From Lutibacter maritimus (GTDB lineage Bacteria; Bacteroidota; Bacteroidia; Flavobacteriales; Flavobacteriaceae), in assembly GCF_900116115.1 (NCBI RefSeq), contig NZ_FOZP01000002.1, positions 270,122 through 334,121 on the forward strand: a DNA stretch of 64,000 nucleotides, read 5' to 3'. Shown piece after piece: positions 38,197-60,540 of the stretch. The notes below the pieces were generated by a model. It searched no databases and was not told the origin of the DNA. It saw only the letters and a program-made list of their open reading frames with translations. Made by a program: the position numbers and the translations under genes. Within the stretch, counting starts at the first letter, position 1. Every line of letters begins with the position of its first letter.

Positions 38197-41100
38197 ATGA
38201 TGAAAAATACGACGTTGGCTAATGGATTTAGATTAAAGGTTTTATTCTTATTATTTGTTTCTTTTTTGAGTAACGCTCAAGAAATGCAAACAAATATATT
38301 AGGTGGTGCTCAAATAAATCAAAGCGAAAATATTGCTATTTCGGCTGGAAATAGTTTAACTTTTCGAATAATAAATACGAGAGATAATTGCGGAACTTTA
38401 AAAATAGAAGAGATTGTTTTAAGTAATACTTCAGATTTTTCTGTTTCACATCCTAATTTAACTTACAATATACGATCTAGTAGTTGTAAAAATGGCGACA
38501 AATATTTAGATTTTACTATTAAAAACACTAGTAATAGTTGTGCTACCTCAACAAGTGTAACTATTAAAAATAATAGAGACCCTGATTTTTCATTTACCAT
38601 TTCAATTAATTCTTCTCCTCAAATTTATGTTTTAGGAGGTAATCCTTTTGCCGATATTAACAATGGTTCTACCGTTACTTCTCCAATTAATGGAACTTAT
38701 TTTGGTGTTGTTGATGAAGGTTCAAAAGTAACCAGAAGTTATGCAATTGCAAACATAGGAAGCTGTTCCTTAGATATTTTGACAGCTACTAGTTCAAATC
38801 CAGATTTTGAAATTACAACCTCATATTCAATTCCTTGGAATGATTTAGACCCATATTTTTATATTTTAATTGATGTAACATTCACCGGTCCTGCATTAGG
38901 TGTGGGTACGCAAACTGCAACTATAAGTATTGGAAATAGTGATACTTTTCCTGACAATTTTGAATTTAATGTAAGTGCGGAAATGTTTAACTATAATATT
39001 CCAGGCCCTGGTGGAATAACAAACGATTTTAGGTTGTGGCTAAAATCTACCAGAGGAATTAAATTTGAACCATCAACTTCTGATAAAGTGAGGTGTTGGT
39101 TGGATTTAGGTACAAACTCAAAAAATGCTGAGCAATCTGTTGCCGCAAATCAGCCAAGTTATATGGATGATGCAGCTTCAAATATCAATTTTAATCCTGT
39201 TATAAAATTTGAAAATGATGGAGGTAGTATAGAGCAATATTTACATAATAGTACCGATGGATTTTACAGTCAGGATATTTTTATTGTTATGATTCCAAAT
39301 TCTACCATAAATAGCTCATCAACTCAAAACACAATTTTTTCAGGAATTTCGTCAGGAAATTCTGGCGATATTACAGGTGTTGGTTTTGGTAATTACTCTA
39401 CACGTTTTACAAATGAAACGTTATCATACAATCAAGATGTTGCGTCTCCAACTGGTACTTATAACGGTGTTGCGGAGTTAAATTCAACATACACTACTGC
39501 AGGTATTATTAATGTTAGAAATGATGCTGATATTGCTACAAAACAAGAATTATTATATAATTCAAATCTTTTAACTACTACAACAGTAAATGATATTTCC
39601 TATGCTAATGTAAATGGAAGTAAATATTGGATTGGAAGAAATTTTGATATTCAAGGAAGTTTAAATGGGCGTATTGCTGAAATTTTTACGTTTGCATCAA
39701 GAGTAACAGCATCAGATCGTCAAAAAATAGAATCTTATTTAGCCATTAAATACGGTATTACCTTAGGTGCAACATCTGAAGCTCAAAAAAGTTACGTTAA
39801 TTCCTTTGGAACTTCGGTTTGGGATATTTCTGCAAATGCTGGATATAACTATCATGTAGCAGGAATTGGAAGAGATTCTATTTCTGATTTAAATCAAAAA
39901 CAGTCTAAAAGCATTCATACTTTAAATGAGGTTACCATTAGTTTGGGCGGATTATTTGCTACAAATAGTGCAAATACAAACGAATTTAAAAAAGATGGAG
40001 ATTTTTTAGTTTGGGGCTGTAATAATAGTGCATTTTCAGGTTCAAATACCAATACTGTTACTTTAGCATCGGGAATAACAACTTCACTAACACGTATTGA
40101 TCGAAAATGGAAAATTATTGAATCTAAAGAAGCTATTGATGGTGATGTAGAAAATGTATACATAAGCATTCCTTCAAATGCTTTTAGTAGTTTTTCAAAA
40201 ACAGCTTCAGAAGAATATGTGTTGATTGTTGCTGATAGTGATACTTTTGGAAATGGTGACATTATTGATGTTATACCATTAAAATCTGACGGAAATTCTA
40301 ATCTTCAAACTTGGTATGATTTTGATGGTGTAAAGTATTTTACTTTTGGAAAAGCACCAAAATTATCAAGTAACAAACAGTCAGTGAGTATTAATGCAGG
40401 TAGTTTTTTGGTAGGTGAATACAATTTAAATTTAAATGTAGATTCATTTACTATTTCTTCTTGGATTAGAAGAACGGGCTCGGAAACTTCAACTAGAACA
40501 ATTTTAGCTAAAGGAGAAAAATTACAATTAAGACTAAATAGTGCGCATAAGATAGAAGTTATGATTGATGACGCCATAACACCAAGATTTGTTTCTGATA
40601 TGGCAATAACGGATACTAAATGGCATCAAATAACTTTTGTTTATAATAGTGGTACAATTTTTTTATATGTAGATGGTATTTTAGATAAATCGGAGCAAGA
40701 TGTTGTGCATCCTTCTCCAAACTACAATAGATTTTCTGTAGGCGCTGTATATATATCAAAAAATAATATTATCAATTCCTTTTTTGGTGAAATTGATGAA
40801 GTTTTAATTTGGGATGTTGGGTTATCTGAAAATCAAATTAAATATTTAATGAATCAAGAAATTGAAAAAGGAACAAGCAATTATATTACTGGAAAATCAA
40901 TTACAGAATCTTCTTTAAGTAATGAAATAAGTATGATTCCTTGGGGTAATTTAAGAGCGTATTATGATTTTAATTCTTTTTATGGATCTACTGTTGAAGG
41001 ATTAACAGATAGCGGATATTTTTTAAGACTTAATTATTTAAATAAATCCAAAAATATTGTAACATCACAAACAGCTCCTTTACCATATACTACTATAGAT

Positions 41101-43125: not shown

Positions 43126-46100
43126 ATGAAAAAATTTATTACACTACTCTTTTTAATAGGATGTTTTTCATCTGTTACATTGTATTCTCAAACCGTTATA
43201 CATTCAGCGAGTTTTGAGTCTGGTAATGATGGATGGACAGATGCGACTGGAAATAATTTTAATAGGTCAAGATATTCTGGAGGAACTCCATCTGCGAGTA
43301 CAGGACCTTCAGGTGCTCAATCAGGAACATATTATATATATACAGAGGCATCGAGCCCAAATTACCCATCAATGGTTGCAAACTTGGTAAGTCCTTCTTT
43401 TAATTTGTCGGGCATTACTAATCCTACATTTTCATTTTACTATCATATGTATGGTGCTACTATCGGAACCCTAAATGTACAGGTAAGTACTGATGGTGGT
43501 GCAACTTTTCCAACTACAGTTTGGACGCGTACAGGTCAAGATCAAACCAGCAATGGAGCTAGTTGGACATTAGTAAATGTTAACTTAAATGCTTTTATTG
43601 GTCAAAATATTAGAATACAGCTAAATGGTATAACAGGTAGTGGTTATACTGGCGATATGGCAATTGATAATATATCCTTAACAGTTACGTACCCAGCAGG
43701 ACCAGAAATTGATGTTTTTGGAAATGGCTTTTCAATTACGGATGGAGATAATACACCTTCTGTAAGTGATGCTACAGAATTTGGTTCTGTTTTAATTTCT
43801 TCATATATAGAAAAAACATTTACCATTAAAAATATAGGAACCTCAACATTAAATTTAACCGGAGGCACTCCTTTAGTAGATATTTCAGGAAATGCAGCAT
43901 TTACAATTGTTACACAACCTAGCGTAAGTAGTATTGCAAGTGGAGGAGCAGATTTAACTTTTGTGGTAAGGTTTAGTCCCTCAACTATAGGTACAGTACA
44001 AGCTGTTATATCAATAGATAGTAATGATACAAATGAAAACCCATTTAATTTTACAATACAAGGAACTGGAAGCTCTGCTTCAGCTTTTGTTAGTCCTGGG
44101 GGTGTGTATAATAACTTAAAAATATGGTTAAAGGCTAATGATGGTTTGAGTTATTCCGATGGGCAAGGTGTTTCAACTTGGGTAAATAAGGGTAGTGGTT
44201 CTAATGCTACTGTACCAGGTGCTGGTTTAGAACCAACATTTAGAGACAATCCAAGTTTTAATATTAATTTTAATCCAGTAGTTGATTTTGATAATGATAA
44301 CAGTACCTCATCTTTAAATTATTCAAACTCTGATACAAGTAGAGATGTGCTGATGGGTACTAATGGATTTTACACCCAAGATATTTTTTTAGTAATGATT
44401 CCTGATGTTACGATTAGCTCCTCAACTTCAAGTATGGATATTTTTTGTGGGGATTATGACCCTTCTACCGATGAAAAAGATGGAACAGGTATTGGATATG
44501 GAAGATATTCTGTGCGTTTTGATAATGAAGTATTATCTTATGCAGTATCAACAACACCAACAACTCCTCCAGCTGATATTAATGACAGAGGTTATGGAAT
44601 TGCGCATACCAGCACAACAGTAACTTATAATATGCCAGGAATTGTAAATTCAAAAAATAATTCTAGTACGCCTACCAAAAACATATTGTCATTTAATGCA
44701 CAAAATATTGGTAATACTGAAGTTGGTTTAAATAAATTTTATAATGTTAATAACTCAAGATTTTGGTTAGGTAGAAGTGAGGCGTATACTGGTAGTTTTG
44801 ATGGTAGAATTGTTGAGGTAATTACATATTCTTCTAGAAATGATGATGCTGTTTCTCGATTAAAAATACAATCTTATTTAGCTATAAAATATGGAATAAC
44901 ATTACATACAGGTACAAATTCAAGGTTGGCAGACATAAATTATGTAGATTCTAACGGATCAGTAATTTGGGATGTTACTTCAAATGCTGGATTTAATTAT
45001 GACATTGCTGGAATTGGTAGAGATGATAACTCTGCATTAAATCAAAAACAATCTAAAAGTGTAAATAATGGAAGTTTAATTGCAATTGGTTTAGGTGAAG
45101 TTGCAAGTACCAATAATCAAAATATTAGTAATAATAAATTAAGTTTTGTTAATGATAGAGACTTTTTAGTTTGGGGAAATAATAATGGAAATTTTAATAC
45201 ATCTTCTGAAGCTTCAAGAAGCATTAGTTTAAGTGGTGTAACAACAACATTTACCCCAGTTTCAAGAAAATGGAAAATTATTGAAAGTCAAAATGATGTT
45301 CCTGAGGTAGTTATATCCATTCCAACAGCTAGTTTAACAAGTAATATTCCTTTGGTGGCAAATGAAGAGTATATGTTAGTAGTATCTGACAATTCCAGTT
45401 TTGCAAATTCGGCTATTATTGATGTGGTTCCTTTTAAAGTAAACGGAACAAACTCTGAAGTTTGGTATGATTTTGATGGTACAATTGCTGCAGGAAATCC
45501 TAAATATTTTACAGTAGCAAAAGCAACAAGAGTTGAGCAAAAACGAAGAGTAGATTTTGGTGTTGGAGAATTTCTTTTGGGTGATAGTAGTTTAGAATTA
45601 ACAAATAATTTTACCGTTTCGGCTTGGGTACAAAATAATGGTACTGGCGGAAGTTTTATTTCAAAAGGAACAGGTTTTAATTTCAAAATAAACGGTAGTA
45701 ATCAAGTTGCTATTGATTGGAATGGCGCTACGCAAGTAACATCAACAAATACCATAGATACTAAGTGGCATCATATTGCTTTAAGCTATAGTGCTGGAAC
45801 AGCCATTTTATATATTGATGGAGTTTTAGATAAAACAGTCTCCAGTTTAAGCAATCCTACAAGTAGTAATCATAAATTTTCAATTGGAGCTTTATATACA
45901 AGCAAAAATAGCATTGCATCTTTTAATGGTGCTGTTGATGAAGTTCGTATTTGGCATGCTGCATTAAGCGCAACGGAAATTCGCTATATAATGAATCAAG
46001 AAATTGAAGCATTTTCAACCAAGGTAAATGGTGAAATTTTACCACAAACAATTACTAAAAATGATATTAAACTAAGAAATTGGTCTGATTTAGAAGCGTA

Positions 46101-48030
46101 TTATGATATGAATTCATATTATGGCACTACCGTTGAAGATAATTCATTAAATAAATATTGGGCACGAATAAAATATTTAGCAAAAGATAAGCAAGTAGTA
46201 GAAAATCAAACTGCGCCTTTACCTTATCAATCAACAGCAAATGGAAATTGGGATACGCCTGCAACGTGGTTAAATAATACAGTGCAATATATTCCAAATA
46301 CAACCCTTTATGGAACTCCAGTAGATTGGAATATTGTTGAAACAACGACCAATGTTAATACAACCAGAGGAGTGACAGTTTTAGGATTATTAAACAATAC
46401 AAATGAGCTTTCAATTAATGCAGATAATCATTTAACAATATCACATTATTTATTGTTAAATGGCGTAATAGATTTAGATGGAGAATCTCAATTAATACAA
46501 ACAACTGATAGTGATTTTGATAATGCTAGCACGGGTTACTTAGAAAGAGATCAGCAAGGAATAGGAAATAAATATAGATACAATGATTGGTCTTCGCCAG
46601 TAATAAAAACAAATACTTCTGCAGGTACACCTTTTACTATTGCAGATGTGTTAAAGGATGGAACAACACCAAGTGCACCTGGAACAATAGTATTTAATGA
46701 CGCCAGTTATGATGGAGCAACCTCTCCTGTAACCTTAAGTACATATTGGATGTATAAATATGCAAATTCACCTGACGGAGATTATAGTTCATGGCAACAA
46801 ATAAGAAGTACTGGAAATTTAAATCCAGGAGAAGGGTTTTTAATGAAAGGAACTGGAGATCCGGGTTCACCAGATCAAAATTATGTGTTTGTCGGTAAAC
46901 CTAATAATGGAGATGTTACATTAACGGTTTCAGGTGGTTATGATTATTTAATAGGTAATCCATATCCTTCAGCAATAGATAGTAAAAAGTTTATTATAGA
47001 TAATGGACCTACGGGTACTTCTTCAATTACAGGTGCTATTTATTATTGGGAACATTATGGTGGTGATACACATAATTTAAAAGATTATCAAGCAGGTTAC
47101 GGAACCTATAGTTTAGGTGGTGGAGTGCAAGCTACGGCACATCCAGGAGTAAGTGCTTCGGGAACGGCTGTTAAAACACCAGAACAATATTTACCTGTTT
47201 CGCAAGGTTTCTTTGTACAGGGTGATGCAGATGGAGGTACTATTATTTTTAAAAATAGTCAAAGAATATTTGAAACCGAAGCAGGAGGAAACTCAGTATT
47301 TATGAAAACTGCAAGTGCTAAATCCGTATCTTCAAATAAATCTACTGTGGATACAAGACCAAAATATAGAATTGGTTTTGATGCACCTAAAATAGATCAT
47401 AGACAATTGTTATTGACAATTGATGAAGAGACATCGGACGGTTATGATTGGGGTTATGATGCTGAAATTTATGAAATATTTGAAGATGATATTTATTGGA
47501 TGATTGATGACAAAAAATATGTGATTCAGGTGACCAATATTGTGGAGGTTAATAAAGAAATACCTATTGGGGTGGTTACCACAGAAGGCGGATTGATAAC
47601 AATTAAAATAGATGCATTGGAAAATATTGAAAATGATTTAGGTGTGTATTTAAAAGATAGTGACACAAATCAAGTGTATGATATTACCAATACAAGTTAT
47701 CAAACCAATTTACCAGCTGGAGAATACCATAATAAATATTCTATCACTTTTAAAACCAACAATGCGCTTTCAGTTCATAATGAATCTTTAAATAACGATT
47801 TTTTAGTGTACTTTAATAATAGTGAAAAAGCAATAGTTTTAAATAATAAAAAGTTACTTAAAATAAATGAAATTAATTTGTACAACATTTTAGGTCAAAC
47901 GATTAAAAAATATAACACAATAGGAACCACAAAAGATACTTCAATTCCTATAAATGTTTCTGAAGGAGTTTATGTAATAAAAGTTGATACTGATGAAGGT
48001 TTTTTTACTAAAAAACTATTTATAAACTAA
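43126..48030 (+). CDS. Giant T9SS-exported mosaic protein 2 (MAM/jelly-roll, DUF8202-like, LamG; 1634 aa)
   Basis: A signal peptide (MKKFITLLFLIGCFSSVTLYSQ) precedes a MAM/choice-of-anchor-J-like jelly roll (about residues 24-190; SFESGNDGW, AIDNISLTV) and a choice-of-anchor-D domain (about 193-312). A DUF8202-like domain (about 325-790; LKIWLKANDGL, IQSYLAIKYGIT, GIGRDD, LNQKQSKS, RKWKIIES) and a LamG domain (about 805-958) follow. The shared C-terminal module (about 1030-1550; ISHYLLLNGVIDLDGESQLIQ, NDWSSPV, YYWEHYGGD, HRQLLLTIDEETSDGYDWG) ends in a T9SS sorting domain (about 1559-1634; LYNILGQ, KKLFIN). It shares order and motifs with the flanking giant genes, consistent with tandem duplication. 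The 240-bp upstream gap has no clear -7 box; an AAACCCC element lies 7-13 nt before the ATG. A terminator follows. Confidence 0.85.
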   Translation: MKKFITLLFLIGCFSSVTLYSQTVIHSASFESGNDGWTDATGNNFNRSRYSGGTPSASTGPSGAQSGTYYIYTEASSPNYPSMVANLVSPSFNLSGITNPTFSFYYHMYGATIGTLNVQVSTDGGATFPTTVWTRTGQDQTSNGASWTLVNVNLNAFIGQNIRIQLNGITGSGYTGDMAIDNISLTVTYPAGPEIDVFGNGFSITDGDNTPSVSDATEFGSVLISSYIEKTFTIKNIGTSTLNLTGGTPLVDISGNAAFTIVTQPSVSSIASGGADLTFVVRFSPSTIGTVQAVISIDSNDTNENPFNFTIQGTGSSASAFVSPGGVYNNLKIWLKANDGLSYSDGQGVSTWVNKGSGSNATVPGAGLEPTFRDNPSFNINFNPVVDFDNDNSTSSLNYSNSDTSRDVLMGTNGFYTQDIFLVMIPDVTISSSTSSMDIFCGDYDPSTDEKDGTGIGYGRYSVRFDNEVLSYAVSTTPTTPPADINDRGYGIAHTSTTVTYNMPGIVNSKNNSSTPTKNILSFNAQNIGNTEVGLNKFYNVNNSRFWLGRSEAYTGSFDGRIVEVITYSSRNDDAVSRLKIQSYLAIKYGITLHTGTNSRLADINYVDSNGSVIWDVTSNAGFNYDIAGIGRDDNSALNQKQSKSVNNGSLIAIGLGEVASTNNQNISNNKLSFVNDRDFLVWGNNNGNFNTSSEASRSISLSGVTTTFTPVSRKWKIIESQNDVPEVVISIPTASLTSNIPLVANEEYMLVVSDNSSFANSAIIDVVPFKVNGTNSEVWYDFDGTIAAGNPKYFTVAKATRVEQKRRVDFGVGEFLLGDSSLELTNNFTVSAWVQNNGTGGSFISKGTGFNFKINGSNQVAIDWNGATQVTSTNTIDTKWHHIALSYSAGTAILYIDGVLDKTVSSLSNPTSSNHKFSIGALYTSKNSIASFNGAVDEVRIWHAALSATEIRYIMNQEIEAFSTKVNGEILPQTITKNDIKLRNWSDLEAYYDMNSYYGTTVEDNSLNKYWARIKYLAKDKQVVENQTAPLPYQSTANGNWDTPATWLNNTVQYIPNTTLYGTPVDWNIVETTTNVNTTRGVTVLGLLNNTNELSINADNHLTISHYLLLNGVIDLDGESQLIQTTDSDFDNASTGYLERDQQGIGNKYRYNDWSSPVIKTNTSAGTPFTIADVLKDGTTPSAPGTIVFNDASYDGATSPVTLSTYWMYKYANSPDGDYSSWQQIRSTGNLNPGEGFLMKGTGDPGSPDQNYVFVGKPNNGDVTLTVSGGYDYLIGNPYPSAIDSKKFIIDNGPTGTSSITGAIYYWEHYGGDTHNLKDYQAGYGTYSLGGGVQATAHPGVSASGTAVKTPEQYLPVSQGFFVQGDADGGTIIFKNSQRIFETEAGGNSVFMKTASAKSVSSNKSTVDTRPKYRIGFDAPKIDHRQLLLTIDEETSDGYDWGYDAEIYEIFEDDIYWMIDDKKYVIQVTNIVEVNKEIPIGVVTTEGGLITIKIDALENIENDLGVYLKDSDTNQVYDITNTSYQTNLPAGEYHNKYSITFKTNNALSVHNESLNNDFLVYFNNSEKAIVLNNKKLLKINEINLYNILGQTIKKYNTIGTTKDTSIPINVSEGVYVIKVDTDEGFFTKKLFIN

Positions 48031-48418: not shown

Positions 48419-49171
48419 ATGAAAAAAACAATACTTTTTACGTTATTTTTAATAATAACATCATTATCATTCTCTCAAATGAAAGATACACGTCAAAAAT
48501 TCAGAATTGGTTTTGACGGTGAAAAAATAGATTACAGGCAAATTTTACTTACCATAGATAAAAATACCAGTGATGATGTAGACTGGGGATATGATGGTGA
48601 AATGTATCAAGTTTTTGAAGATGATATGTTTTGGGTAATTAAAGATAAAAAATATGTAATTCAAGCAACCAATGAAATACACGTTGATAAAGAAATTCCA
48701 TTAGGAATCATCTCTTCAGGAGGTGAAATTGCAATAAAAGTAGATGCTTTAGAAAACCCTTGTGAAACTATGTTGGTTTTATTAAAAGATAAGGAATTAA
48801 ATAAAGTATATGAAATTCAAAATGAAACCTATAAAATAACGTTACCAGCAGGTGAATATACGAATAGGTTTGCTATTACGTTTAAAGAATGTAAAAAAGA
48901 AATAGAGGAAATAGTAGAGTCAAGTTTTATTGTGCAAGATTTAAATATTTATTACGATGGTTTAAACTCAAAAATTGTATTAAATAACCCTAATGAAGTT
49001 ACATTAGCAAGTGTAAATATGTACAATTCAATTGGGCAACATATTAAAAGTTGGGAAAGTAATACAAATGCTAATTATATAGATATTCCAGTAAATATAA
49101 AGCCTGGTATTTATTTTTTACAATCAATATCTGAACAAGGAAAATCTACCAAAAAAATTATGGTTCATTAA
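48419..49171 (+). CDS. Mini T9SS protein: signal peptide joined to terminal part of shared module (250 aa)
   Basis: The signal peptide MKKTILFTLFLIITSLSFSQ is followed at once by the last part of the module shared by the giant neighbours: RQKFRIGFDGEKIDYRQILLTID, VDWGYDGEMYQVFEDDMFWVI, KKYVIQATNEI, IKVDALENP, LPAGEYTNRF. A T9SS sorting domain (about residues 175-250; MYNSIGQ, PGIYFLQ, KKIMVH) ends the protein. All N-terminal, DUF8202-like and LamG domains are missing, yet the frame is intact and begins with its own signal peptide, so it is not simply a decayed fragment. The ATG is preferred over a longer frame because only it gives a signal peptide. The AAACCCC leader element is nearly identical to that of the preceding giant gene. 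Confidence 0.8.
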   Translation: MKKTILFTLFLIITSLSFSQMKDTRQKFRIGFDGEKIDYRQILLTIDKNTSDDVDWGYDGEMYQVFEDDMFWVIKDKKYVIQATNEIHVDKEIPLGIISSGGEIAIKVDALENPCETMLVLLKDKELNKVYEIQNETYKITLPAGEYTNRFAITFKECKKEIEEIVESSFIVQDLNIYYDGLNSKIVLNNPNEVTLASVNMYNSIGQHIKSWESNTNANYIDIPVNIKPGIYFLQSISEQGKSTKKIMVH

Positions 49172-49303: not shown

Positions 49304-52300
49304 ATGCTTACTTTTAAACCCCAATTTAAACAGCTACTGTTTAGCCTATGTGTTTTAGTTTCTTTAAACACATTTTCACAGACTACAATTGCAAGCCAAA
49401 ATTTTGATACTGCGGGATTAGGTTATACGGTTTCTAATGGAACTTATGTATATACCTGGAATTACACAGCATCATCTACACCAAACTCCTTGGAATTTGC
49501 AGGATCAAGTGGTACAGAATATGTGTTATTTAATAATGTAGATATTTCTTCTTATACAGATGTAACTGTAAAGATATCTTTTTCTTCATATTTGGTAGGT
49601 AATAATGAAGATTTATGGTTAGATATTTCTTATAATAACGGAGCAACTTGGGCAATAAGTAATAGGTTAGTTAATGGGAACAATCCCGGTCAAACAATTG
49701 ATTGGGGAAATATTGATGGAGATGGGCAATCTGTAAATTCCAACCCATACACAGTCAATATACCTAATGGTACTACAAGTGTTAAAGTTAGAGTTAGTTC
49801 TGTAAATATAGATTATGGAGAATATTTCAATATAGATGATTTATTAATTTCAGGGACTCTAAAATGCACAAACCCTGCAGCACCAACTGCAGTTACACCA
49901 AATACAGGTACAACAATTTGTAGCGGGGCAAGTGTAAATTTAGACGCTACTTCAGCGGGTAATACTATTTATTGGTACACACAAGCTACTGGCGGTTCAA
50001 GTATTGGAAGCTCAGCAAGTGGTGCTAATTTTTCAGTATCACCAACTAGCAATACAACATATTATGCAGAGGCACGTACAAATTCTGGAGGTTGCATTAG
50101 TGCAACAAGAACAGCAACTGCTTTAATAACTGTAAACGCAACCCCCACTATAACAGGTACAACGCCTGCTTCTAGGCCAGACCCAGGAGTGCTTACATTA
50201 GCAGCAACTGCTTCGTCTGGTACAATTTCTTGGTATGCTAATTTAACCGGTGGTTCACCATTGGCAACAGGTCCTAGTTTTACAACACCATCTTTATCAA
50301 CCACCACTACTTATTATGTTTCTGTAAGTAATGGTACGTGTACATCATCACCAAGAACACCTGTAGTTGCAAGTATTGCTTCTTTTTCTGAGGTAATAGT
50401 TTCGGTAAATTGGCCAAGTGGCTCTAATCAAAATTCACTTAAAATTTATACACCATCCGGTGTTTTAATTAGTTCAATTAGAGATACAGAAGGTACAACT
50501 ACCACTAATTATTTAGCAACATTTAATTTAGGATGTTTAGAAGATTTGAATAATTATTATTTTATTATGTATGATTCAAATAATAATGGTTGGGATGGTA
50601 CAGATAACATTACAATAACTGTTGGTGGAACAACTGTTATAAATCAAAATGGAAATGCTGCAAATACAGCAGGGGTAACAGTTAATTTTAATGTTTCAGG
50701 TGGAGGTTGTACAATGTCTTCATTATCTAACGCTCCAGGAGGTGTTGCTAAAAACTTACAGTTATGGTTAAAATCAAATAAAGGAGTTACAAAAAACGGA
50801 AGCAATGGAGTTACTTCTTGGGTTACTCAAGCCAACGGTTCAAATGCGAATGTGACAGCTACAGGACAAGAACCAACTTTTAGAGACGACCCAATACACA
50901 ATGTAAATTTTAACCCTGTGATTGACTTTGATAATGGAGCTTCAACTTCGGATAGCTTTAACTATTCACAATTAGGTCAACAATTTCTGACAGGTAATTC
51001 AGGGTTTTATACGCAAGATATTTTTGTTGTTGTAATACCAGATACTGCTATAAATTCAAGTAGTAGTATGGATATATTTTGTGCGGATTCTGATACAGGT
51101 TCTCAAAATAATGATGGAACAGGTACTGGGTTTGGTAGCTATTCTCAAAGGTTTAACAATGAGGTATTATCATATGCTTATGGTCTTTCGGGTGGCTTAA
51201 ATGATGGTTTTGGAGTGGCTCAAACAGTAACTGGAGGTTATGATAATGTTGGGATTATTAATTCAAGAAATAATATAACTTATAATAGTCAGGAGTTGTA
51301 TTATAATGGAACAAATGTGGTAAATACAACTTCAGACATTTCTAAATGGGGAGCTGTTTCAAATGGTAAATATTGGATTGGTAGAAGTGAAGGTTGGAGT
51401 GGAAGTTTAAATGGTAGAGTTACAGAAATTATTACCTATTCTTCTCGTAAAAATGATACAGATTTAACACAAGAACGTAACAGAATTCAATCCTATTTAG
51501 CTATCAAATACGGAATTACGTTAGGTACAAACGGTACTAGTCAAGATTATGTTGCTAGTGATGGAACTTTAATATGGGATGTAAATACAAGTACGCCAAC
51601 CGAAGATGTATTTAACTATAATATTACAGGTATTGGTAGAGATGATGTAGCTGAATTAAATCAAAAACAATCAAAATCAGTACATGCAACTAATGATATT
51701 ACCATTGGTCATGGAGATATTTTAGCAACTAATAATTTAAACACAAATAACTTTGCGGCAGATAAATCTTATCTAGTCTGGGGAAACAATAATGGAAGTT
51801 TAACGGCTCAAACTCCTGTTGTGGTTAATTTAAGTGCAGGAATTTCTGGTTTAACAACAAATGTAGAGTTTACTTCAATAGGTAGAACTTGGAAAGTGGT
51901 AAAAAAAGGAACAGTTGGAATGGCTAAAATTGCTATTCCGCAAACTATGTTAACTGCAACAATTACTCCGCCAGGTAGTTTTTTAATGTTTATTTCTGAT
52001 GAGCCTACCTTTAGTCCAACTTCTGAATACAGAATAATGAACTTAAATGGCAGTAATTTAGAAACCTATTATGAATTTACAAGTTCAAAAAAATTCATTA
52101 CTTTCGGTTATGCGCCTGAGAAAACCTTTACAAGATCTATTTATTTTGATGGAACTAAAGATTATTTAAATGTTGGAAATAAATTAGATTTAAATACATC
52201 ATTTACCATTTCAGCTTGGGTAAAAAGAAGTAATACAAATGCATCAATAGTTTCAAAACGAAATAACACCTATGCAAATGGTGGTTACGATTTTAAAATA

Positions 52301-54736
52301 AATGCTTCAGGAAACCTAGAAATGTCTTGGAAAAATGGTGCTACGCAAACAATTACTTCTTCAGTTGTAATTCCTTCTAACAAATGGCATCATGTTGCCG
52401 TTGTGTATAATGGTACACAAGCTAAATTATATATTGATGGAGTTGAAGATGTTACACAAACTAAAAATTTAGCAGTTCCTATTACTAATTCCGAATCATT
52501 TTTAATAGCTGCAGCAGATGGTAATGAGTCAAATACAACTTCATTTTTTCAAGGAAATATAGATGAAGTTAGAATTTGGAATACGGCACTATCACAAGAT
52601 CAGTTACGTTTTGTGATGAATCAAGAAATTGAGAATGACGGAACAAAAGTATCAGGTTCTTACTTTAAAAATTTAACAATCACACCATCAAAAAATGATA
52701 TCAATGCTGTTGACTGGGCAAGTTTAAAAGGATATTATCCAATGAGTGTCTATACGTTTACAAACTGTAAAGATGCCTCAGGAAATGGAAATGTTGCTGC
52801 AATTAAAAAACTGAATACAGTAGATTGGCAAACAGCACCATTACCGTATGTTTCAATTGCAGATACAGATTGGGATGTAAGTAGTACTTGGCAAAATGGA
52901 TCGGTTCAAACAATACCAGGCTCAGCTTCCATTGTTGACGCTACAAAAACAGTTGATTGGAATATTGTTCAAATTAGTAGCAATGTAATTTTAGAAAATT
53001 CAAGCTTACCAGCGGCTAATTTTGGAAACAGAAATGTATTAGGTTTACTTGTAGACAATACAAAAAAATTAGAAGTAACTGGTGTAAATCCTACTACTAC
53101 TGACCCATATTCAGGAACTGGTAATGGAATTACAATCTCACATTATTTAGGCTTAAATGGTAAAATAGATTTACAAGGCGAATCGCAATTAATTCAAACG
53201 TTAAATAGTGATTTAAATGTGGGTACTAATGGAGTGTTAGAACGCGATCAACAAGGCGTAGGAAATAAATATTGGTATAATGATTGGTCATCACCTGTGT
53301 ACTCATTAAATGACGGTTTAAATTATTCACGAATTATTGACGTTTTAAGAGATGGTACCAATGCAAGCTCACCAGGTGCTATTACGTATGTTGGAGGCTA
53401 TGATGGCGCAGTTGGGCCACCAATAACACTAAGTACATATTGGATGTATAAGTATGCAAACCACCCAGAAGGTAGTTATAGTTTATGGGAGCAAATTGGT
53501 AATACCGGTAAAATATATCCTGGTCAAGGTTTTTTAATGAAAGGAACTGGAGCTGCAGCAGATCAAAACTATGTATTTGTTGGAAAACCAAACAACGGAA
53601 ATTTTGATTTAAATATTACAAGCGGATATGATTATTTATTAGGAAATCCATACGCTTCAGCAATCGATTCTTGGGAATTTATTGATGACAATCCAAATTT
53701 AACGGGGCCATTATATTTTTGGGAACATTATGGAGGTACAAATCATAATTTAAAAGATTATCAAGCAGGCTACGCAACGCTAACCAAAGCAGGAGGTGTA
53801 ACCGCAACTTCAGGCGGTGTAATTCCTGCAGGAGTGAGTAATTTAGGAACTTCAACTAAAATACCAGGTAGGTTTATTCCAGTTGGTCAAGGCTTTTTTG
53901 TTGTAGGAAGCACAAATGGGCAAATTCATTTTAAAAACTCACAAAGAATCTTTTTTAAAGAAGCCGAAGAAACCGTGAGCAATTTTGGATCTGTTTTTAT
54001 GAAAGGAATTACTAAAAAAACTACAAAATCAACCAGCAGGTTTATGGATAATAGACAAAAAATAAGAATTGGTTTTGAAGGGGCTAAAGTTGATCATAGA
54101 CAATTATTATTAACTATTGATGAAAATGCTTCAGATGGTGTTGATAGGGGTTATGAGGCAGAAATTTATGAAGTTTTTGAAGATGACATGTATTGGGTAA
54201 TACAAGATAAAAAGTATGTAATACAAGCCACAAACGCCATTGAAAATAATAAGGAAATTCTGTTAGGTGTTAAAGTTAAAGAAACGGGTACGGTAAAAAT
54301 AAAAATAGACGAACTTGAGAATGAAGACGTAAATATGCAATTATTTTTAAAAGATAGTTTGTTGCAAAAAACATATAATTTAAAAGAAAATCCTTTTGAA
54401 CAAGAAATAGAAGCAGGAGAATATGTAAATAGATTTTATTTGGTATTTAAACCAATTCCTAAAGTAATAGAAGAAGATACAGAAATCATAGAAGAAATTT
54501 CAGGAGTCCATATTTTTATGAATAATCAAATAGCTGAATTACAAATTCAAAAAGATGCTGAAACCAATATTTCTCAAATAAAATTGGTAAATTATCTTGG
54601 TCAAAATATTAAAATTTGGAATCAAAAGTTTGATGGTACCCTTATTTCTTTACCTATAAAATTGGCTACAGGAGTTTATGTAGTTCAAATGAAAACTGAA
54701 AAAGGAATCATCAATAAAAAAATAATAATAGAGTAA
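49304..54736 (+). CDS. Giant T9SS-exported mosaic protein 3 (Ig-like, DUF8202-like, LamG; 1810 aa)
   Basis: The protein has a signal peptide (residues 1-26, ending NTFSQ), a beta-sandwich (about 30-186), two Ig-like T9SS-cargo domains (about 188-272 and 280-352; ICSGASVNLDA, SNTTYYAEA) and a further beta domain (about 362-460; YDSNNNGWDGTD, possibly calcium-binding). A DUF8202-like domain (about 480-930; LQLWLKSNKGV, IQSYLAIKYGITLG, GIGRDD), a LamG domain (about 944-1110) and the shared module (about 1180-1725) follow, with a T9SS sorting domain at the end (about 1735-1810; LVNYLGQ, KKIIIE). In the module the DGYDWGYDAE motif has changed to DGVDRGYEAE. The M14 peptidase gene begins 19 nt downstream and probably shares its transcript. 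Confidence 0.85.
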   Translation: MLTFKPQFKQLLFSLCVLVSLNTFSQTTIASQNFDTAGLGYTVSNGTYVYTWNYTASSTPNSLEFAGSSGTEYVLFNNVDISSYTDVTVKISFSSYLVGNNEDLWLDISYNNGATWAISNRLVNGNNPGQTIDWGNIDGDGQSVNSNPYTVNIPNGTTSVKVRVSSVNIDYGEYFNIDDLLISGTLKCTNPAAPTAVTPNTGTTICSGASVNLDATSAGNTIYWYTQATGGSSIGSSASGANFSVSPTSNTTYYAEARTNSGGCISATRTATALITVNATPTITGTTPASRPDPGVLTLAATASSGTISWYANLTGGSPLATGPSFTTPSLSTTTTYYVSVSNGTCTSSPRTPVVASIASFSEVIVSVNWPSGSNQNSLKIYTPSGVLISSIRDTEGTTTTNYLATFNLGCLEDLNNYYFIMYDSNNNGWDGTDNITITVGGTTVINQNGNAANTAGVTVNFNVSGGGCTMSSLSNAPGGVAKNLQLWLKSNKGVTKNGSNGVTSWVTQANGSNANVTATGQEPTFRDDPIHNVNFNPVIDFDNGASTSDSFNYSQLGQQFLTGNSGFYTQDIFVVVIPDTAINSSSSMDIFCADSDTGSQNNDGTGTGFGSYSQRFNNEVLSYAYGLSGGLNDGFGVAQTVTGGYDNVGIINSRNNITYNSQELYYNGTNVVNTTSDISKWGAVSNGKYWIGRSEGWSGSLNGRVTEIITYSSRKNDTDLTQERNRIQSYLAIKYGITLGTNGTSQDYVASDGTLIWDVNTSTPTEDVFNYNITGIGRDDVAELNQKQSKSVHATNDITIGHGDILATNNLNTNNFAADKSYLVWGNNNGSLTAQTPVVVNLSAGISGLTTNVEFTSIGRTWKVVKKGTVGMAKIAIPQTMLTATITPPGSFLMFISDEPTFSPTSEYRIMNLNGSNLETYYEFTSSKKFITFGYAPEKTFTRSIYFDGTKDYLNVGNKLDLNTSFTISAWVKRSNTNASIVSKRNNTYANGGYDFKINASGNLEMSWKNGATQTITSSVVIPSNKWHHVAVVYNGTQAKLYIDGVEDVTQTKNLAVPITNSESFLIAAADGNESNTTSFFQGNIDEVRIWNTALSQDQLRFVMNQEIENDGTKVSGSYFKNLTITPSKNDINAVDWASLKGYYPMSVYTFTNCKDASGNGNVAAIKKLNTVDWQTAPLPYVSIADTDWDVSSTWQNGSVQTIPGSASIVDATKTVDWNIVQISSNVILENSSLPAANFGNRNVLGLLVDNTKKLEVTGVNPTTTDPYSGTGNGITISHYLGLNGKIDLQGESQLIQTLNSDLNVGTNGVLERDQQGVGNKYWYNDWSSPVYSLNDGLNYSRIIDVLRDGTNASSPGAITYVGGYDGAVGPPITLSTYWMYKYANHPEGSYSLWEQIGNTGKIYPGQGFLMKGTGAAADQNYVFVGKPNNGNFDLNITSGYDYLLGNPYASAIDSWEFIDDNPNLTGPLYFWEHYGGTNHNLKDYQAGYATLTKAGGVTATSGGVIPAGVSNLGTSTKIPGRFIPVGQGFFVVGSTNGQIHFKNSQRIFFKEAEETVSNFGSVFMKGITKKTTKSTSRFMDNRQKIRIGFEGAKVDHRQLLLTIDENASDGVDRGYEAEIYEVFEDDMYWVIQDKKYVIQATNAIENNKEILLGVKVKETGTVKIKIDELENEDVNMQLFLKDSLLQKTYNLKENPFEQEIEAGEYVNRFYLVFKPIPKVIEEDTEIIEEISGVHIFMNNQIAELQIQKDAETNISQIKLVNYLGQNIKIWNQKFDGTLISLPIKLATGVYVVQMKTEKGIINKKIIIE

Positions 54737-54755
54737 AACGTATAAACCCCCATTA

Positions 54756-57305
54756 ATGATAAAAAAATTACTTATTACCATATTCTTATTTAGTGCGTGC
54801 CTATCAAATGCACAAAGTAATTTAGAATTGGCCGAGAAATATTTAAAAGAAAGAGGTGAATTAGCTTTCACTTTTACAGCAAATACAATTAAAGAAATTC
54901 AACAATTAGCGAACATAGTTTCTTTTGATCACGGACAAGATCCTAAGCATCCTTTAACAATAAAAGCAATTGCTAACAAAGATGATTTTGAAAAATTTCT
55001 TAAATTCAATTTACCTTTTACTATAAATAAAGAGCTGAATGAACCTAAGAATGTGGAAATGTTTAACCCCAAAATTCATAAAAAAGGAGTTTCTGGAAAA
55101 AACGCATCTTATACATTATCATTCCCATTAGTTGCATATCCTACCTATGCACAATATGTGCAACAAATGAATGATTTTGTTAATGATCATTCCGATATTG
55201 CTAGATTAGTTTCTATTGGAACTACTTCAGGCTCTGGCAGTAGTGGTTATTCTGGAGGTGCACATCAATTATTGTTTATTGTACTTTCTGATAATGTGAA
55301 CACTAGGGAGAAAGAACCAAGAGTTATGTATACATCTTCAATTCATGGAGATGAAATTGCGGGCTACCCTTCTATGTTGAATTTGATTGATCATTTTATT
55401 ACAGCCTATAAAAATACTGGAGATTCTGATCATACCCGAGTTAAAAATTTATTAGATAATTCTGAAGTATGGATTAATCCGTTGGCAAATCCAGATGGAA
55501 CCTATAGAACTTCAAATACAAGTGTAAGCTCAGCAATTAGAGGAAATGCTTATGCATTTGATATGAATAGAAACTATCCTGTTCCCGATGGAACATTACA
55601 TCCTGACGGAAGAGTATATCAATATGAAACAACTAAATTTATGGAATTGGCAGAATCAACGCATTTTGTGGTTGCCGGGAATTTTCACGGTGGAGAAGAG
55701 GTTGTCAATTACCCTTGGGATTATACCTATGATAGACATGCGGACGATACTTGGATGCAATTAGTTAGTACTGAGTACGCTGCTAATACTCACACTAGCG
55801 CAGGTTCAGTTTCTTATATGACTTATGATAATACATTTAATTCTTACCTTGGTATTACACACGGTGCTGATTGGTACATTATTAATGGTGGGCGACAAGA
55901 TTATATGAATTATGAAAGACATACCAAAGAAATAACATTTGAAATATCAAATACTAAATTACCTCCTGCAAGTCCATCCGGTTCTTATGATATTTTAGAT
56001 TTATGGAATTATAATAAAGAAGCATTTATTGAGTTTTTAATACAAGGAACATACGGTTTTCAGGGAGTTGTAAAAGACGCCAATACAAATCTACCTATAA
56101 ATGCTAAAATTAGTATTCTTAATCACGACACTAATGGTTCATGGGTTGAAACCGAATTGCCTTTGGGAGATTATTATAGACCAATTAAAGGCGGTACTTA
56201 TGATATTATGTATGAAGCAGATTGTTATGTGCCGTACATTTTAAGAAACCAAACAATTACGGATTATCAAACAGTTGTTTTGCCAGATGTTTATTTAACA
56301 CCATTATCAACAGCATCTTCACCATCAAATTTAAGGGCGTATTCATTAAAAATGACATCGGCAACCATATCTTGGGATAATATTAAAAACGCCAGTTTAT
56401 ACAATATAAGATATAGAAAAGTTGGAGCATCATCATGGATAACTACAACATCAACTACAAATTCAACAAATTTAACGGGATTAACAGCAACATCAACCTA
56501 TGAATTTCAAGTGACAGCTACCTGTAGTGGAACAACAACAAGTTGGAGTGCTATTGAGACGTTTAATACTATTACAACTAATTATTGTACATCTCAAGGA
56601 TCTGATTCAGCTGGTGGTTACATTGGTCTGGTAAAAATTGGCAATATTGATATGGTTAGTTCTGCAACTGGATATTCAGATTTAACAAATTTGGCATTAA
56701 ATGTAGATAAGGGTGAAATTGTAAATACATCAATCATGCCAATTTGGCCAAATAATTCTGGGACTAAATATAATGATGCATACAGTATTTGGATAGACTT
56801 TAATCAAGATGGTGATTTTTTAGATGCAAATGAGCAAGTTTGGTCAAAAAAATCTTCAAAGACAAGACCAGTCACTGGAAGTTTCACGATACCGTCTTCA
56901 GCTGTTTACGGTACAACACGGATGCGAGTTTCCATGAAATATTATAATAATTCAAATCAATCTGCACCTACAGCTTGTGAGACTTTTTCTTATGGTGAAG
57001 TTGAGGATTACACAGTAAATATTGTTGATAAAACCCTTGGCATTGAAGATGAAATTTTAAGCACATTTTCTATTTACCCTAACCCAGTTTCTAATGGTGA
57101 AATTACTATTAAAATGCCAAATGAGATACACGATTTTGATATAACAGTTTCCAATGTATTAGGGCAAAAAGTATATACAAAAAATGTGCAAAATAACTTT
57201 GATACTACTGAATTGATAAATACGGCTAATTTTATGTCAGGCATTTACTTTATAACGGTAAGTACAGATTTAGGAAAGGCAACAAAGAAGCTAATAATTA
57301 ATTAA
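54756..57305 (+). CDS. T9SS-exported M14 zinc carboxypeptidase (849 aa)
   Basis: The protein has a signal peptide (MIKKLLITIFLFSACLSNAQ) and a pro-region, then a peptidase M14 domain (about residues 125-410) with zinc ligands His197 and Glu200 (HGDE) and His311 (GNFHGGEE), and catalytic Glu396 (ITFEIS). It continues with a CarboxypepD_reg-type domain (about 430-515), a fibronectin type III domain (about 520-605) and a GEVED domain (about 610-745; WIDFNQDGDF, YGEVEDYTVNI). A T9SS type A sorting domain (FSIYPNPVSNGEI ... KKLIIN) closes it. It probably trims C-terminal residues from peptides outside the cell. It is the only clear enzyme in the cluster and does not carry the shared module. Confidence 0.92.
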   Translation: MIKKLLITIFLFSACLSNAQSNLELAEKYLKERGELAFTFTANTIKEIQQLANIVSFDHGQDPKHPLTIKAIANKDDFEKFLKFNLPFTINKELNEPKNVEMFNPKIHKKGVSGKNASYTLSFPLVAYPTYAQYVQQMNDFVNDHSDIARLVSIGTTSGSGSSGYSGGAHQLLFIVLSDNVNTREKEPRVMYTSSIHGDEIAGYPSMLNLIDHFITAYKNTGDSDHTRVKNLLDNSEVWINPLANPDGTYRTSNTSVSSAIRGNAYAFDMNRNYPVPDGTLHPDGRVYQYETTKFMELAESTHFVVAGNFHGGEEVVNYPWDYTYDRHADDTWMQLVSTEYAANTHTSAGSVSYMTYDNTFNSYLGITHGADWYIINGGRQDYMNYERHTKEITFEISNTKLPPASPSGSYDILDLWNYNKEAFIEFLIQGTYGFQGVVKDANTNLPINAKISILNHDTNGSWVETELPLGDYYRPIKGGTYDIMYEADCYVPYILRNQTITDYQTVVLPDVYLTPLSTASSPSNLRAYSLKMTSATISWDNIKNASLYNIRYRKVGASSWITTTSTTNSTNLTGLTATSTYEFQVTATCSGTTTSWSAIETFNTITTNYCTSQGSDSAGGYIGLVKIGNIDMVSSATGYSDLTNLALNVDKGEIVNTSIMPIWPNNSGTKYNDAYSIWIDFNQDGDFLDANEQVWSKKSSKTRPVTGSFTIPSSAVYGTTRMRVSMKYYNNSNQSAPTACETFSYGEVEDYTVNIVDKTLGIEDEILSTFSIYPNPVSNGEITIKMPNEIHDFDITVSNVLGQKVYTKNVQNNFDTTELINTANFMSGIYFITVSTDLGKATKKLIIN

Positions 57306-57311
57306 AACACA

Positions 57312-57357
57312 AAACTTTAATGGCTAAATAGCTTATATTTAGTCATTAAAGTTTTTA
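57312..57357 (+). terminator. Rho-independent terminator after the M14 carboxypeptidase
   Basis: AAACTTTAATG pairs with CATTAAAGTTT, and continuing inward CTAAATA pairs with TATTTAG across one G-T wobble. This gives a stem of about 19 bp with a 5-nt loop (GCTTA), followed by Ts. Confidence 0.85.
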
Positions 57358-57545
57358 CATCTCAGGTTACTTATTTTTCTAAAAACAACTTTTAGTTTTT
57401 GCTTTTTTTTATAGATTAATTTTCATTTTGTGGCATTTACAATAATATACTGTTCTCAATTTTAGTGTATTTCAGATTGGTTAATTATGTCAGATTAAAG
57501 ATGAAGATTACAATTTTAAAAAGTTGGGCACTTTTAACAGCATAG

Positions 57546-57598
57546 TTGCACAACTAATTTAAAAAGGTGTACAACTAATTTTAAAAGTTGCGCAACTA
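57546..57598 (+). repeat. Three 21-bp tandem units containing a GTTG(C/T)(A/G)CAAC palindrome
   Basis: TTGCACAACTAA, GTGTACAACTAA and TTGCGCAACTA start at 57546, 57567 and 57588, an exact 21-bp period, with AT-rich linkers (AATTTAAAA type). The third unit lies in a perfect 12-bp palindrome, AGTTGCGCAACT. The first is the same palindrome with one change. It could be a small tandem repeat or three helically phased protein-binding sites. Confidence 0.55.
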
Positions 57599-57660
57599 TT
57601 GCATATTTAATGAAGTAGTTTAAAATGAGGCTTTTAGTAATTCACCTAAAAAATCAGTTT

Positions 57661-57711
57661 TTTGTTGATCACATGAAGTATTTTATTGATAAAACTTCAT
57701 CGTTTGTTGAT
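57661..57711 (+). promoter_or_regulatory. Three TTT(G/A)TTGAT repeats, exact 21-bp period
   Basis: TTTGTTGAT (57661), TTTATTGAT (57682) and TTTGTTGAT (57703) are spaced by 12 bp each. The linkers are not conserved, which points to protein-binding sites rather than a tandem duplication. The GTTGAT core equals the complement of ATCAAC in the repeats before giant protein 1. The middle copy lies within a longer inverted repeat (ATGAAG...CTTCAT, 57673-57700). Confidence 0.5.
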
Positions 57712-57749
57712 TACTTTTTCTAAAATTAGCTTTTTTTTAAAAAACAACT

Positions 57750-57757
57750 TATTTTTG
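57750..57757 (+). promoter_or_regulatory. Promoter -7 box TATTTTTG of giant protein 4
   Basis: This perfect TAnnTTTG match is 23 nt before the start codon and about 40 bp downstream of the last TTTGTTGAT repeat. Confidence 0.6.
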
Positions 57758-57780
57758 CGCAGTCCCAATAAATTGATTCT

Positions 57781-60540
57781 ATGTGTAGTAACTTCAAGAT
57801 ATTTAATAGCGTACTGATGTTTGTTGTTTTAATTCCCACGTTACTATTTAGTCAGGGAACATTACAGGTTAGAGACGTCTCTAATAGTATTAGTATTAAT
57901 AGTGGTGATATTACACCAAGTCTTACTGATGGAACTGATTTTGGGAATACTAATTTAGGTTCGTCAAAAGCTAATACATTTACATTTGACAATATTGCTG
58001 GTAATGGTCCAACCAGCTTATCATCAGTTTCTATAAATATTTCAGGTGCAAATGCAACTGAATTTACCCTTTCAACAAGTAATCTTGGAAATGGAAATTT
58101 AAATAGAAATACTAATAAATATCTTACGATTACTTTTACGCCTAGTTCTGCAGGATTAAAAACAGCAACTGTTACTGTTTCTTTTACAAATGGTACCAAT
58201 TCACCATATATTTTTACCATTCAAGGTAATGGGATTTTATCATATTGTACGCCAATTAATATCAATAATTATAACATAAATTTCATTTCAAATGTGTCAT
58301 TGGGTGCAATTAATAATACAACTAATGGTAACACAGGGGCATATAACAATTACACATCATTTGCAACAATAGATGCAAACGCTGGTATGAATTTAAATGG
58401 TAATATATCCATAAATTTAAATGGTTGGAATCAAGTTACCAGTAATAAAATAAATATTTGGATAGATTTTAATCAAGATTTAGATTTTGAAGATGCAGGC
58501 GAAAATTTTATAATTAATGTTAATAGTGGGGCTAGTGTTTCGGGAACTAAAACAATTGTAGTACCCATAAGTATTTTAATTCCAGCAACAGCGGCGCTAG
58601 GAAATACTCGCATACGTATTGGCTTTATAGATGATATTCAAACAGCTTCTTATTCAGCTTGTAATTTTTCTTATAACACTGGTGAAATAGAAGATTACAC
58701 TATTAATATAGCTGGCTGTTCAACAAATATGTGGACAGGAACAACAGATTATGATTGGAATAAACCTTCAAATTGGAGTTGCGGAACTGTTCCAACAATT
58801 AGTACAAATGTTTTAATTCCATCACCTCTTACATCGGGTAAATATCCAATTATTTATAATGGAACTCCTTTCGGTAAAGTTAATAATATTGAAATTCAAA
58901 ATAATAGTACTGCATCTTTACAAATTAGAGATAATTATATACAAATTGCAGGAACTTTGCTATTAAATGGAAAACTTGATTTACAAGGAGAAGCGCAATT
59001 GATACAAAATACAGGAAGTACTATAGATATTGCAAGCACTGGATTTATAGAAATAGATCAACAAGGACAAGGAAATAGATACCGTTATAACGATTGGTCT
59101 TCACCAGTAATTAAAACTGGAACAACTGCAGGAACACCATATACAGTTGCTGATGTTTTAAGAGATGGAACAGATCCTGATAATCCAAAAACAATTGATT
59201 TTGTTGGTGGTTATGATGGAAGCATACCTGGTGGTTCAGGTGCAATAAAAATAGCAAATTCTTGGATTTATAAATATACGAATTCTCCTGATGGAAATTA
59301 TAATGGTTGGGGACAAATAGGAAGTACAGGAAATTTAAATCCAGGCGAAGGTTTTTTAATGAAAGGACCAGGTAACCCAGGTTCATCAGATCAAAATTAT
59401 GTGTTTGTTGGTAAGCCAAATAATGGAACAATTAATTTAGCTATTAGTGGAAATAACGACTATTTGGTGGGTAATCCTTATCCTTCAGCACTAGATGCCA
59501 ATCAATTTATTTTAGATAATGCCAGTTCGTTAAGAGATGGAACCATTTATTTTTGGGAACATTATGGAGGAAATTCACATAATTTAGCCGACTATCAAGC
59601 AGGATATGCCTATTATAATTTAAGCGGAGGTGTTGTTGCTTCTGCTCACTCGGTTGTTAATCAAAGTGTTCCAAACGGTACAAAGCAACCACAAAGATAT
59701 ATAGCAATAGGTCAAGGATTTTTTGTTTGGGCTGATGCGGATGGTGGTTCTATTCAATTTAATAACAATCAAAGAATGTTTGCTACAGAAACTTCAGGTA
59801 GCTCAATTTTTATGAAGGGTGCTGCTCAAAAGAACTCAATAAAATCTAAAATAGCTAGTGATGATGAACGACCAAAATTTAGATTAGGATTTAAAGGAGA
59901 AAAAATTGATAATCGTCAAATATTACTAACAATAGATGAAAATTCAACTGATGGAGTAGATTATGGTTATGAAGCTGAAATTTATGAAATATTTGAAGAT
60001 GACATGTTTTGGACTATTGCTGATAAAAAATATGTGATTCAAGCAACTAACACTATCGATATTAATAAAGAAATTCCGATAGGAATAATTTCAAGCGGCG
60101 GTTTAATTTCCATAAAAATGGATGCTTTAGAAAATGTGAGCGATACGCAAGAAATATATATTAAAGATAAAATTACAGGAGGTATACATACTATTAAAAA
60201 TCAATCATTTGAAATCGATTTACCAAAAGGAGAATATTTAAATAGATTTGCATTAACTTTTAAATCTGAAAATACATTAGCTGTAGAAGAAGAAACTTTA
60301 GAAGATGATATTTTAGTATTTATGAATAATTCTAATAAAGCATTACAAATTGTAAAACCTATTAACCTAGAAATTGAAGCAATTATTTTATATAATAACT
60401 TAGGGCAAATTAAGGGTTATTGGAAAGAAGAATTTTTAGAAGATTCCTTTTCTTTACCTGTAAAAGCTGCAACAGGTATTTATTTTGTTCAAATTAATAC
60501 TAAAAACGGGAAAATAGGTAAAAAAATACTTATAGAATAA
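57781..60540 (+). CDS. T9SS-exported mosaic protein 4 (choice-of-anchor D, GEVED, shared module; 919 aa)
   Basis: The signal peptide (residues 1-25, ending LLFSQ) is followed by a choice-of-anchor-D-like domain (about 27-150), a GEVED domain (about 153-315; WIDFNQDLDFEDAGENF, GEIEDYTINI) and a short linker (WTGTTDYDWNKPSNW). The cluster's shared module (about 317-835; LLLNGKLDLQGEAQLIQ, NDWSSPV, GEGFLMKG, YFWEHYGGNSHNLADYQAGY, RQILLTIDENSTDGVDYGYEAE) ends in a T9SS sorting domain (about 844-919; LYNNLGQ, TGIYFVQ, KKILIE). Unlike the other three it lacks the DUF8202-like and LamG domains. Its GEVED domain is like the one in the M14 peptidase next door, which suggests domain exchange. Confidence 0.85.
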   Translation: MCSNFKIFNSVLMFVVLIPTLLFSQGTLQVRDVSNSISINSGDITPSLTDGTDFGNTNLGSSKANTFTFDNIAGNGPTSLSSVSINISGANATEFTLSTSNLGNGNLNRNTNKYLTITFTPSSAGLKTATVTVSFTNGTNSPYIFTIQGNGILSYCTPININNYNINFISNVSLGAINNTTNGNTGAYNNYTSFATIDANAGMNLNGNISINLNGWNQVTSNKINIWIDFNQDLDFEDAGENFIINVNSGASVSGTKTIVVPISILIPATAALGNTRIRIGFIDDIQTASYSACNFSYNTGEIEDYTINIAGCSTNMWTGTTDYDWNKPSNWSCGTVPTISTNVLIPSPLTSGKYPIIYNGTPFGKVNNIEIQNNSTASLQIRDNYIQIAGTLLLNGKLDLQGEAQLIQNTGSTIDIASTGFIEIDQQGQGNRYRYNDWSSPVIKTGTTAGTPYTVADVLRDGTDPDNPKTIDFVGGYDGSIPGGSGAIKIANSWIYKYTNSPDGNYNGWGQIGSTGNLNPGEGFLMKGPGNPGSSDQNYVFVGKPNNGTINLAISGNNDYLVGNPYPSALDANQFILDNASSLRDGTIYFWEHYGGNSHNLADYQAGYAYYNLSGGVVASAHSVVNQSVPNGTKQPQRYIAIGQGFFVWADADGGSIQFNNNQRMFATETSGSSIFMKGAAQKNSIKSKIASDDERPKFRLGFKGEKIDNRQILLTIDENSTDGVDYGYEAEIYEIFEDDMFWTIADKKYVIQATNTIDINKEIPIGIISSGGLISIKMDALENVSDTQEIYIKDKITGGIHTIKNQSFEIDLPKGEYLNRFALTFKSENTLAVEEETLEDDILVFMNNSNKALQIVKPINLEIEAIILYNNLGQIKGYWKEEFLEDSFSLPVKAATGIYFVQINTKNGKIGKKILIE

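Follow-up and report, generated by a model that had tools for sequence, protein, structure and literature searches.

A RemA/RemZ-related domain pair in T9SS-type modular proteins encoded at a variable chromosomal site of Lutibacter

Introduction

T9SS cargo is exported by Sec, after which its C-terminal domain (CTD) docks on PorV in SprA; the CTD is sufficient for targeting, and a fusion protein bearing that of RemA is directed to the T9SS (PMC10994853). RemA itself, a lectin-domain adhesin of type A T9SS export, has a part in gliding motility. When tracked, it appears as immobile foci and as mobile, non-helical foci and is also released, and the location of chimeras is set by the CTD (PMC12618676). 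RemZ (Fjoh_0803), described as a homologue of RemA and a T9SS substrate, was caught in the SprA pore by its CTD, and the sorting domain is the only well-resolved part of RemZ in the cryo-EM structure (PMC10994853). Here we analyse a gene cluster of Lutibacter maritimus whose products share with RemA and RemZ a long region ahead of this sorting domain, and compare it across the genus. The window referred to below is the whole stretch of 64,000 nucleotides that was analysed, and all feature coordinates are positions within it.

Results and discussion

A preliminary description of the window had reported four large proteins and a small one with a common block in front of a T9SS sorting domain. 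These proteins are real: a block of ~515 residues precedes a type A sorting domain in g1, g2, g4 and g5, the motifs quoted for it are present, and the four full blocks are 51-56% identical to the first when aligned over ~515 residues. The small protein, g3, consists of the end of the block (its last ~140 residues) and the sorting domain. The block comprises two domains, D1 and D2, and the cluster and its borders are laid out as follows.

32628..34928, + strand: porZ (T9SS attachment complex; PF21544, 2e-26), in a left flank of porZ, recO and TonB-dependent receptor that is conserved by synteny
35650..38097, + strand: TonB-dependent receptor, left border of the cassette site; adjoins the acyl-CoA dehydrogenase at empty sites
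38197..42885, + strand: g1, 1562 aa; signal-peptide-like start, N-terminal part, LWLK region (unnamed), LamG, block, sorting domain
40426-40842: LamG of g1
41071..42606, + strand: block of g1; D1 at 41071-42132, linker, then D2 to 42606
43126..48030, + strand: g2, 1634 aa; MAM, choice-of-anchor D, unnamed region, LamG, block, sorting domain
43210-43683: MAM of g2
45577-45981: LamG of g2
46210..47283, + strand: D1 of the g2 block, 358 aa; beta-helix-like start and a beta domain in AlphaFold models
47356..47757, + strand: D2 of the g2 block, all-beta and sandwich-like in the AlphaFold model; preceded by a disordered Ser/Lys-rich linker
47797..48027, + strand: type A sorting domain of g2; TIGR04183 at 28.8 bits (cut-off 23)
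48419..49171, + strand: g3, 250 aa; signal-peptide-like start, followed by D2 and the sorting domain alone; a complete small protein
49304..54736, + strand: g4, 1810 aa; N-terminal part, two Ig_7, unnamed region, LamG, block, sorting domain
52148-52606: LamG of g4
52832-54454: block of g4
54756..57305, + strand: M14 zinc carboxypeptidase with fn3, GEVED and type A sorting domain; inside the cluster, without the block
57781..60540, + strand: g5, 919 aa; choice-of-anchor D, GEVED, block, sorting domain
58450-58707: GEVED of g5
58696-60267: block of g5
60598..61776, - strand: acyl-CoA dehydrogenase, right border of the cassette site

The proteins of the window begin with what looks, by eye, like a signal peptide. 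In g3, whose reading frame opens at TTG 48350 and whose best start is ATG 48419, this segment runs directly into the last ~140 block residues and then the sorting domain. The N-terminal part of g1 has a weak Ig-like match, and the profile match to its block spans positions 1-516. The preliminary description had confined the sharing to the last ~500 residues, which proved too narrow, as g1, g2 and g4 have over twice that length in common. Paired at full length, these three are 40-45% identical over 1,383-1,567 residues; what they share is the block and ~650-700 residues upstream of it, namely the unnamed LWLK.. region and LamG, and they differ in their first 100-470 residues only. The common ground of g5 with the others is the block alone, together with a weak Ig-like match to g2. 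Of the domain names given there, family searches bore out LamG (found in g1, g2 and g4) and GEVED (found in g5), but not DUF8202: the conserved stretch before LamG in g1, g2 and g4 is without a match in the Pfam copy searched. This unnamed region covers residues ~260-740 of g1, ~320-815 of g2 and ~474-945 of g4, and carries the motifs LWLK..., YWIGRSE, SYLAIKYGITLG and AGIGRD.

The block is homologous to RemA and RemZ

That the block itself has no name was correct. No Pfam or NCBIfam family covers it, and only the last ~75 residues of the proteins match a family, the sorting domain TIGR04183. It is not, however, unrelated to anything described. A profile of the block without the CTD had two matches among PDB sequences, RemA (1.4e-37) and RemZ (4.3e-34) of Flavobacterium johnsoniae, and a profile of block and CTD built from 42 homologues matched RemA at 3.6e-68 and RemZ at 1.3e-67. 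Residues 890-1018 of RemA align to the early W..W part of the block and residues 1078-1434 to the rest. These alignments indicate that the homology to RemA and RemZ extends over the pre-CTD region, beyond the CTD. We found no solved structure of the block itself; the RemA and RemZ structures resolve the sorting domain only, and the chains that the structure search matched in the PDB have just 75-76 residues.

Modelled with AlphaFold together with its sorting domain (mean pLDDT 86, pTM 0.78), the block is predicted to form two compact all-beta domains, D1 (~10-358) and D2 (383-516), joined by a disordered linker (360-377) and followed by a short linker (520-528) and the sorting domain (530-606). 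The model thus points to a folded module, as the preliminary description had anticipated, and neither a described Pfam family nor a string of unrelated short repeats was found. A fold search with the whole model returned a list filled by the sorting domain, for which the domain of g2 gave Z 11.1 against the RemA CTD structure (rmsd 1.6, 74 residues aligned). D1 was then folded alone (358 aa, pLDDT 88, pTM 0.88) and searched alone against PDB structures, with no convincing match (Foldseek, best E 0.04, probability 0.08; VIA, best Z 2.5, rmsd 3.1, 90 residues aligned), a result from which a new fold does not follow. Among viral structures D1 has one strong match (E 1e-10, TM 0.39 of the query), BFVD entry A0A8D9C8P8, named 'putative hemin binding protein' and assigned to an uncultured marine phage; the contig may be mis-binned and the protein bacterial. 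A phage collection searched with the block gave no match, and the motif NPYPSA retrieved no literature.

The block is tied to T9SS cargo, as had been proposed: the sorting domain follows it directly in all 42 near and all 20 distant copies examined. TIGR04183 matches 42/42 block proteins and is above its cut-off in all five proteins of the window. In each of the 20 distant copies the sorting domain lies at the end, with 82-95 aa from block to stop. The type C model NF033708 also matches all 20 distant copies, but the tails of g2 (24.6) and g3 (17.9) score below its 40-bit cut-off and are therefore not classed as type C.

A variable cassette at one chromosomal site

The block is present in 29 of the 37 Lutibacter genomes, that of the window included. 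Elsewhere it occurs in 30/41 sampled genomes of the family, in 3/8 of one other family of the order and in two others, with a distant relative in Flammeovirga; the named genera that carry it include Psychroserpens, Kordia, Winogradskyella, Dokdonia, Tamlana, Algibacter and Flavobacterium. Tandem clusters of it recur, again in line with the preliminary description. Proteins of ~660 aa with little beyond block and sorting domain are recurrent across Lutibacter. The genome of the window encodes two more block proteins outside the cluster, in frames of 959 and 668 aa (G000:C16:105003-106661 and G000:C9:91531-93039; L005, L006).

In most Lutibacter contigs showing the site, the block genes lie between recO and the TonB receptor on one side and acyl-CoA dehydrogenase, rnpA and an S41 protease on the other. 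The number of copies at the site ranges from one (G007, G008, G012 and G013) to five (the window, with the small gene counted), and in three genomes (G452, G023 and G018) the site is empty, with 7-48 bp between receptor and dehydrogenase. Two genomes, G020 and G025, have the cluster beside the receptor but away from the dehydrogenase. Nothing matched the acyl-CoA dehydrogenase gene when plasmids were searched with it. Outside Lutibacter the same neighbourhood was not seen among the loci examined, with the partial exception of Algibacter lectus, where a block gene follows closely on a homologue of the PBP1C gene of the window. The Lutibacter genes thus form a variable cassette at one fixed chromosomal site. 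A mobile island is disfavoured, as three sites are simply empty and in most genomes the large ORFs of the cassette are all block or M14-type proteins. The neighbouring porZ was also considered as an explanation of the locus and rejected, because cassettes persist where porZ is missing. From a comparison of the large ORFs, we prefer tandem duplication, deletion and segment exchange as the source of the variation.

Variable heads and a base under purifying selection

The N-terminal parts of 37 block proteins were searched for known families. LamG was found in 27 and GEVED in 12, and PA14, MAM, F5/8C, HYR, ice-binding and GLEYA domains also occur; no catalytic domain is among the 25 families listed for these 37 parts. 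To judge by these family matches, the heads are binding domains. Ice_binding (PF11999) matches two of the 37 heads (N-terminal parts of the L037-L063 proteins), with a best value of 5.9e-38.

Comparison with the orthologue of g2 in a sister species (G021) separates the two ends of the protein. Identity is 84-90% over residues 600-1500 and 9-50% upstream. The block is 86% identical with a dN/dS of 0.08, whereas the first 320 residues of g2 show 33% identity over little more than half their length, with a dN/dS of 0.56 in the alignable part; these ratios are rough, as dS is near or above 1. The base is thus under purifying selection. The MAM head of g2 is 58% identical to a head of L. profundi (G012), against 34% over 110 aa to the sister orthologue, and residues 360-470 of g4 share 75% identity with L039, the sister species offering no match to them. 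The M14 domain is 89.5% identical to that of L040 (G032), and the whole M14 protein 85.6%, while the flanking S41 protein reaches only 71%; a different M14-like protein occupies the same cassette slot in the sister species. These patterns support an exchange of segments between species, and the suspected diversification of the heads is thereby given a mode, although fast divergence instead of exchange may account for part of the N-terminal difference.

g3 is likewise under purifying selection. It is 85.6% identical to its counterpart in the sister species with a dN/dS of 0.095, and tail-only ORFs occur in ~12 genomes, on which grounds a decaying fragment was rejected. In it a sorting domain carries D2 without D1, and it might be a partner or filler unit at the surface.

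PorU and PorZ have been lost within the genus

Of 38 Lutibacter genomes, 21 gave a match to PorZ, and these are also the ones with PorU (20 above cut-off and one fragment). Both are absent from the same 17 genomes, including G008, G010, G027 and G029 (L083/L084, L089, L092, L168-L170), and no C25 peptidase was found in these 17. SprA is present in 38/38, and the PorU-less genomes examined for PorV and for type A sorting domains retain both. The sorting domains of block proteins in PorU-less species still have the conserved C-terminal Lys. In G029 (Lutibacter sp. B1), G008 and G010, porU is cleanly missing between gldJ and porV and the remaining gene order is kept, these names being assigned by position and the known F. 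johnsoniae order (PMC7440613); in several genomes porZ is missing between a histidine kinase and recO. The genome of the window has a PorV-like gene beside PorU. PorU, PorZ and PorQ have been reported absent from Sphingobacteriia (PMC7323717), and PorU and PorQ from two sponge isolates (PMC7440613), so that loss as such is not new. Within one genus, the loss constitutes a natural experiment on type A T9SS cargo without its sortase.

What the base may do

Taken together, we consider it likely that the cluster encodes T9SS-exported surface or secreted adhesins with a RemA/RemZ-type base and exchangeable heads. Such a protein would run from an N-terminal signal peptide through exchangeable binding domains and the conserved D1+D2 base to a sorting domain at the C-terminus, which is of the type docking on PorV within the pore of SprA. 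The base would most likely serve as a stem beside the sorting domain, holding different heads outward, in which case heads could be replaced without disturbing export. Its position and conservation suggest this stem role, and the conserved Trp, Tyr and His residues of D1 would fit a binding site as well. Indeed, the block itself might be the conserved ligand-binding part, for example a carbohydrate-binding domain whose target is polysaccharide on the surface of the same cell or some common substrate, with the heads as accessories. Many aromatic and His residues of D1 are invariant or nearly so (W127, W180, W195, W280, H282, H288 and Y293), the recurrent ~660 aa proteins have little besides block and sorting domain, and the weak VIA neighbours of D1, mostly beta-helix proteins, include beta-helix polysaccharide lyases (Z 2.1-2.5). 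Yet Z values near 2 are within noise, core packing can explain the aromatic conservation, and the small g3-type proteins are without D1, and we regard a binding block as unlikely. A role specifically in gliding, with the proteins moved along the surface as RemA is, draws on the homology to RemA and RemZ and on the part that RemA plays in motility, and seems to us less probable still. L. profundi has gliding genes and one block gene and is nevertheless reported not to glide (PMC5219744), so a gliding role may not apply; RemA itself forms static foci and mobile non-helical ones and is released, and chimeras go where the CTD sends them (PMC12618676), for which reason we do not assume such a role for the Lutibacter family.

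The loss of PorU and PorZ bears on another reading, in which the block is an extended secretion or retention signal that helps the translocon or shuttle with very large cargo, or holds proteins at the surface non-covalently and free of the sortase. The block always lies directly before the sorting domain, and block proteins are retained in 15 of the 17 PorU/PorZ-less genomes. Type A tails are fewer in this group, at a median of 8 against 18.5 in PorU-containing genomes, while block genes are about as many (4 versus 3). Cassette M14 proteins occur in 9/12 genomes with PorU and 0/9 without (five of the nine seen only in part). Set against this signal are the targeting of a fusion protein by the RemA CTD alone (PMC10994853) and the fact that most T9SS cargo, the M14 protein of the cluster included, lacks the block. 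Moreover, a 35-genome tree places 13 of the 17 PorU-less genomes in one supported clade, the label needing four changes and the deep branches being weak, and the type A counts depend on the E-value cut-off; shared ancestry and detection cut-offs could thus lie behind the correlations. We therefore judge an extended signal improbable. A bolder combination, that D1 is an undescribed fold and D1-D2 a sortase-independent surface-holding module which lets PorU/PorZ-less Lutibacter keep swappable adhesins while other type A cargo shrinks, we think very unlikely. Returning to the exchangeable-head reading, we see in the cluster a real, selected family of T9SS-type modular proteins that are most likely adhesins.

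To conclude, a large and recurrent unnamed domain pair of Flavobacteriaceae surface proteins is now tied to RemA and RemZ, so that it becomes possible to define, model and test it. The Lutibacter cassette adds a single chromosomal site at which heads are exchanged on a constant base.

Comparison with known systems

RemA (8gl6_D) is a large modular surface protein with T9SS type A export, and its block and sorting domain align with those of the window proteins. Its lectin head, however, differs from their LamG, MAM, Ig and GEVED heads, and family searches reported no galactose-binding-lectin family for the window proteins. RemZ (8gl8_D) aligns over block and sorting domain in the same way. With type A cargo in general (TIGR04183), all five proteins of the window share the C-terminal sorting domain, whereas the 515-residue block is missing from ordinary type A cargo, of which the M14 protein encoded among them is an example. 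To the type C cargo of the ChiA type (NF033708), the likeness is a weak cross-match of the sorting domains. Notable in the Lutibacter family are the unnamed domain pair and an unusually clear variable locus.
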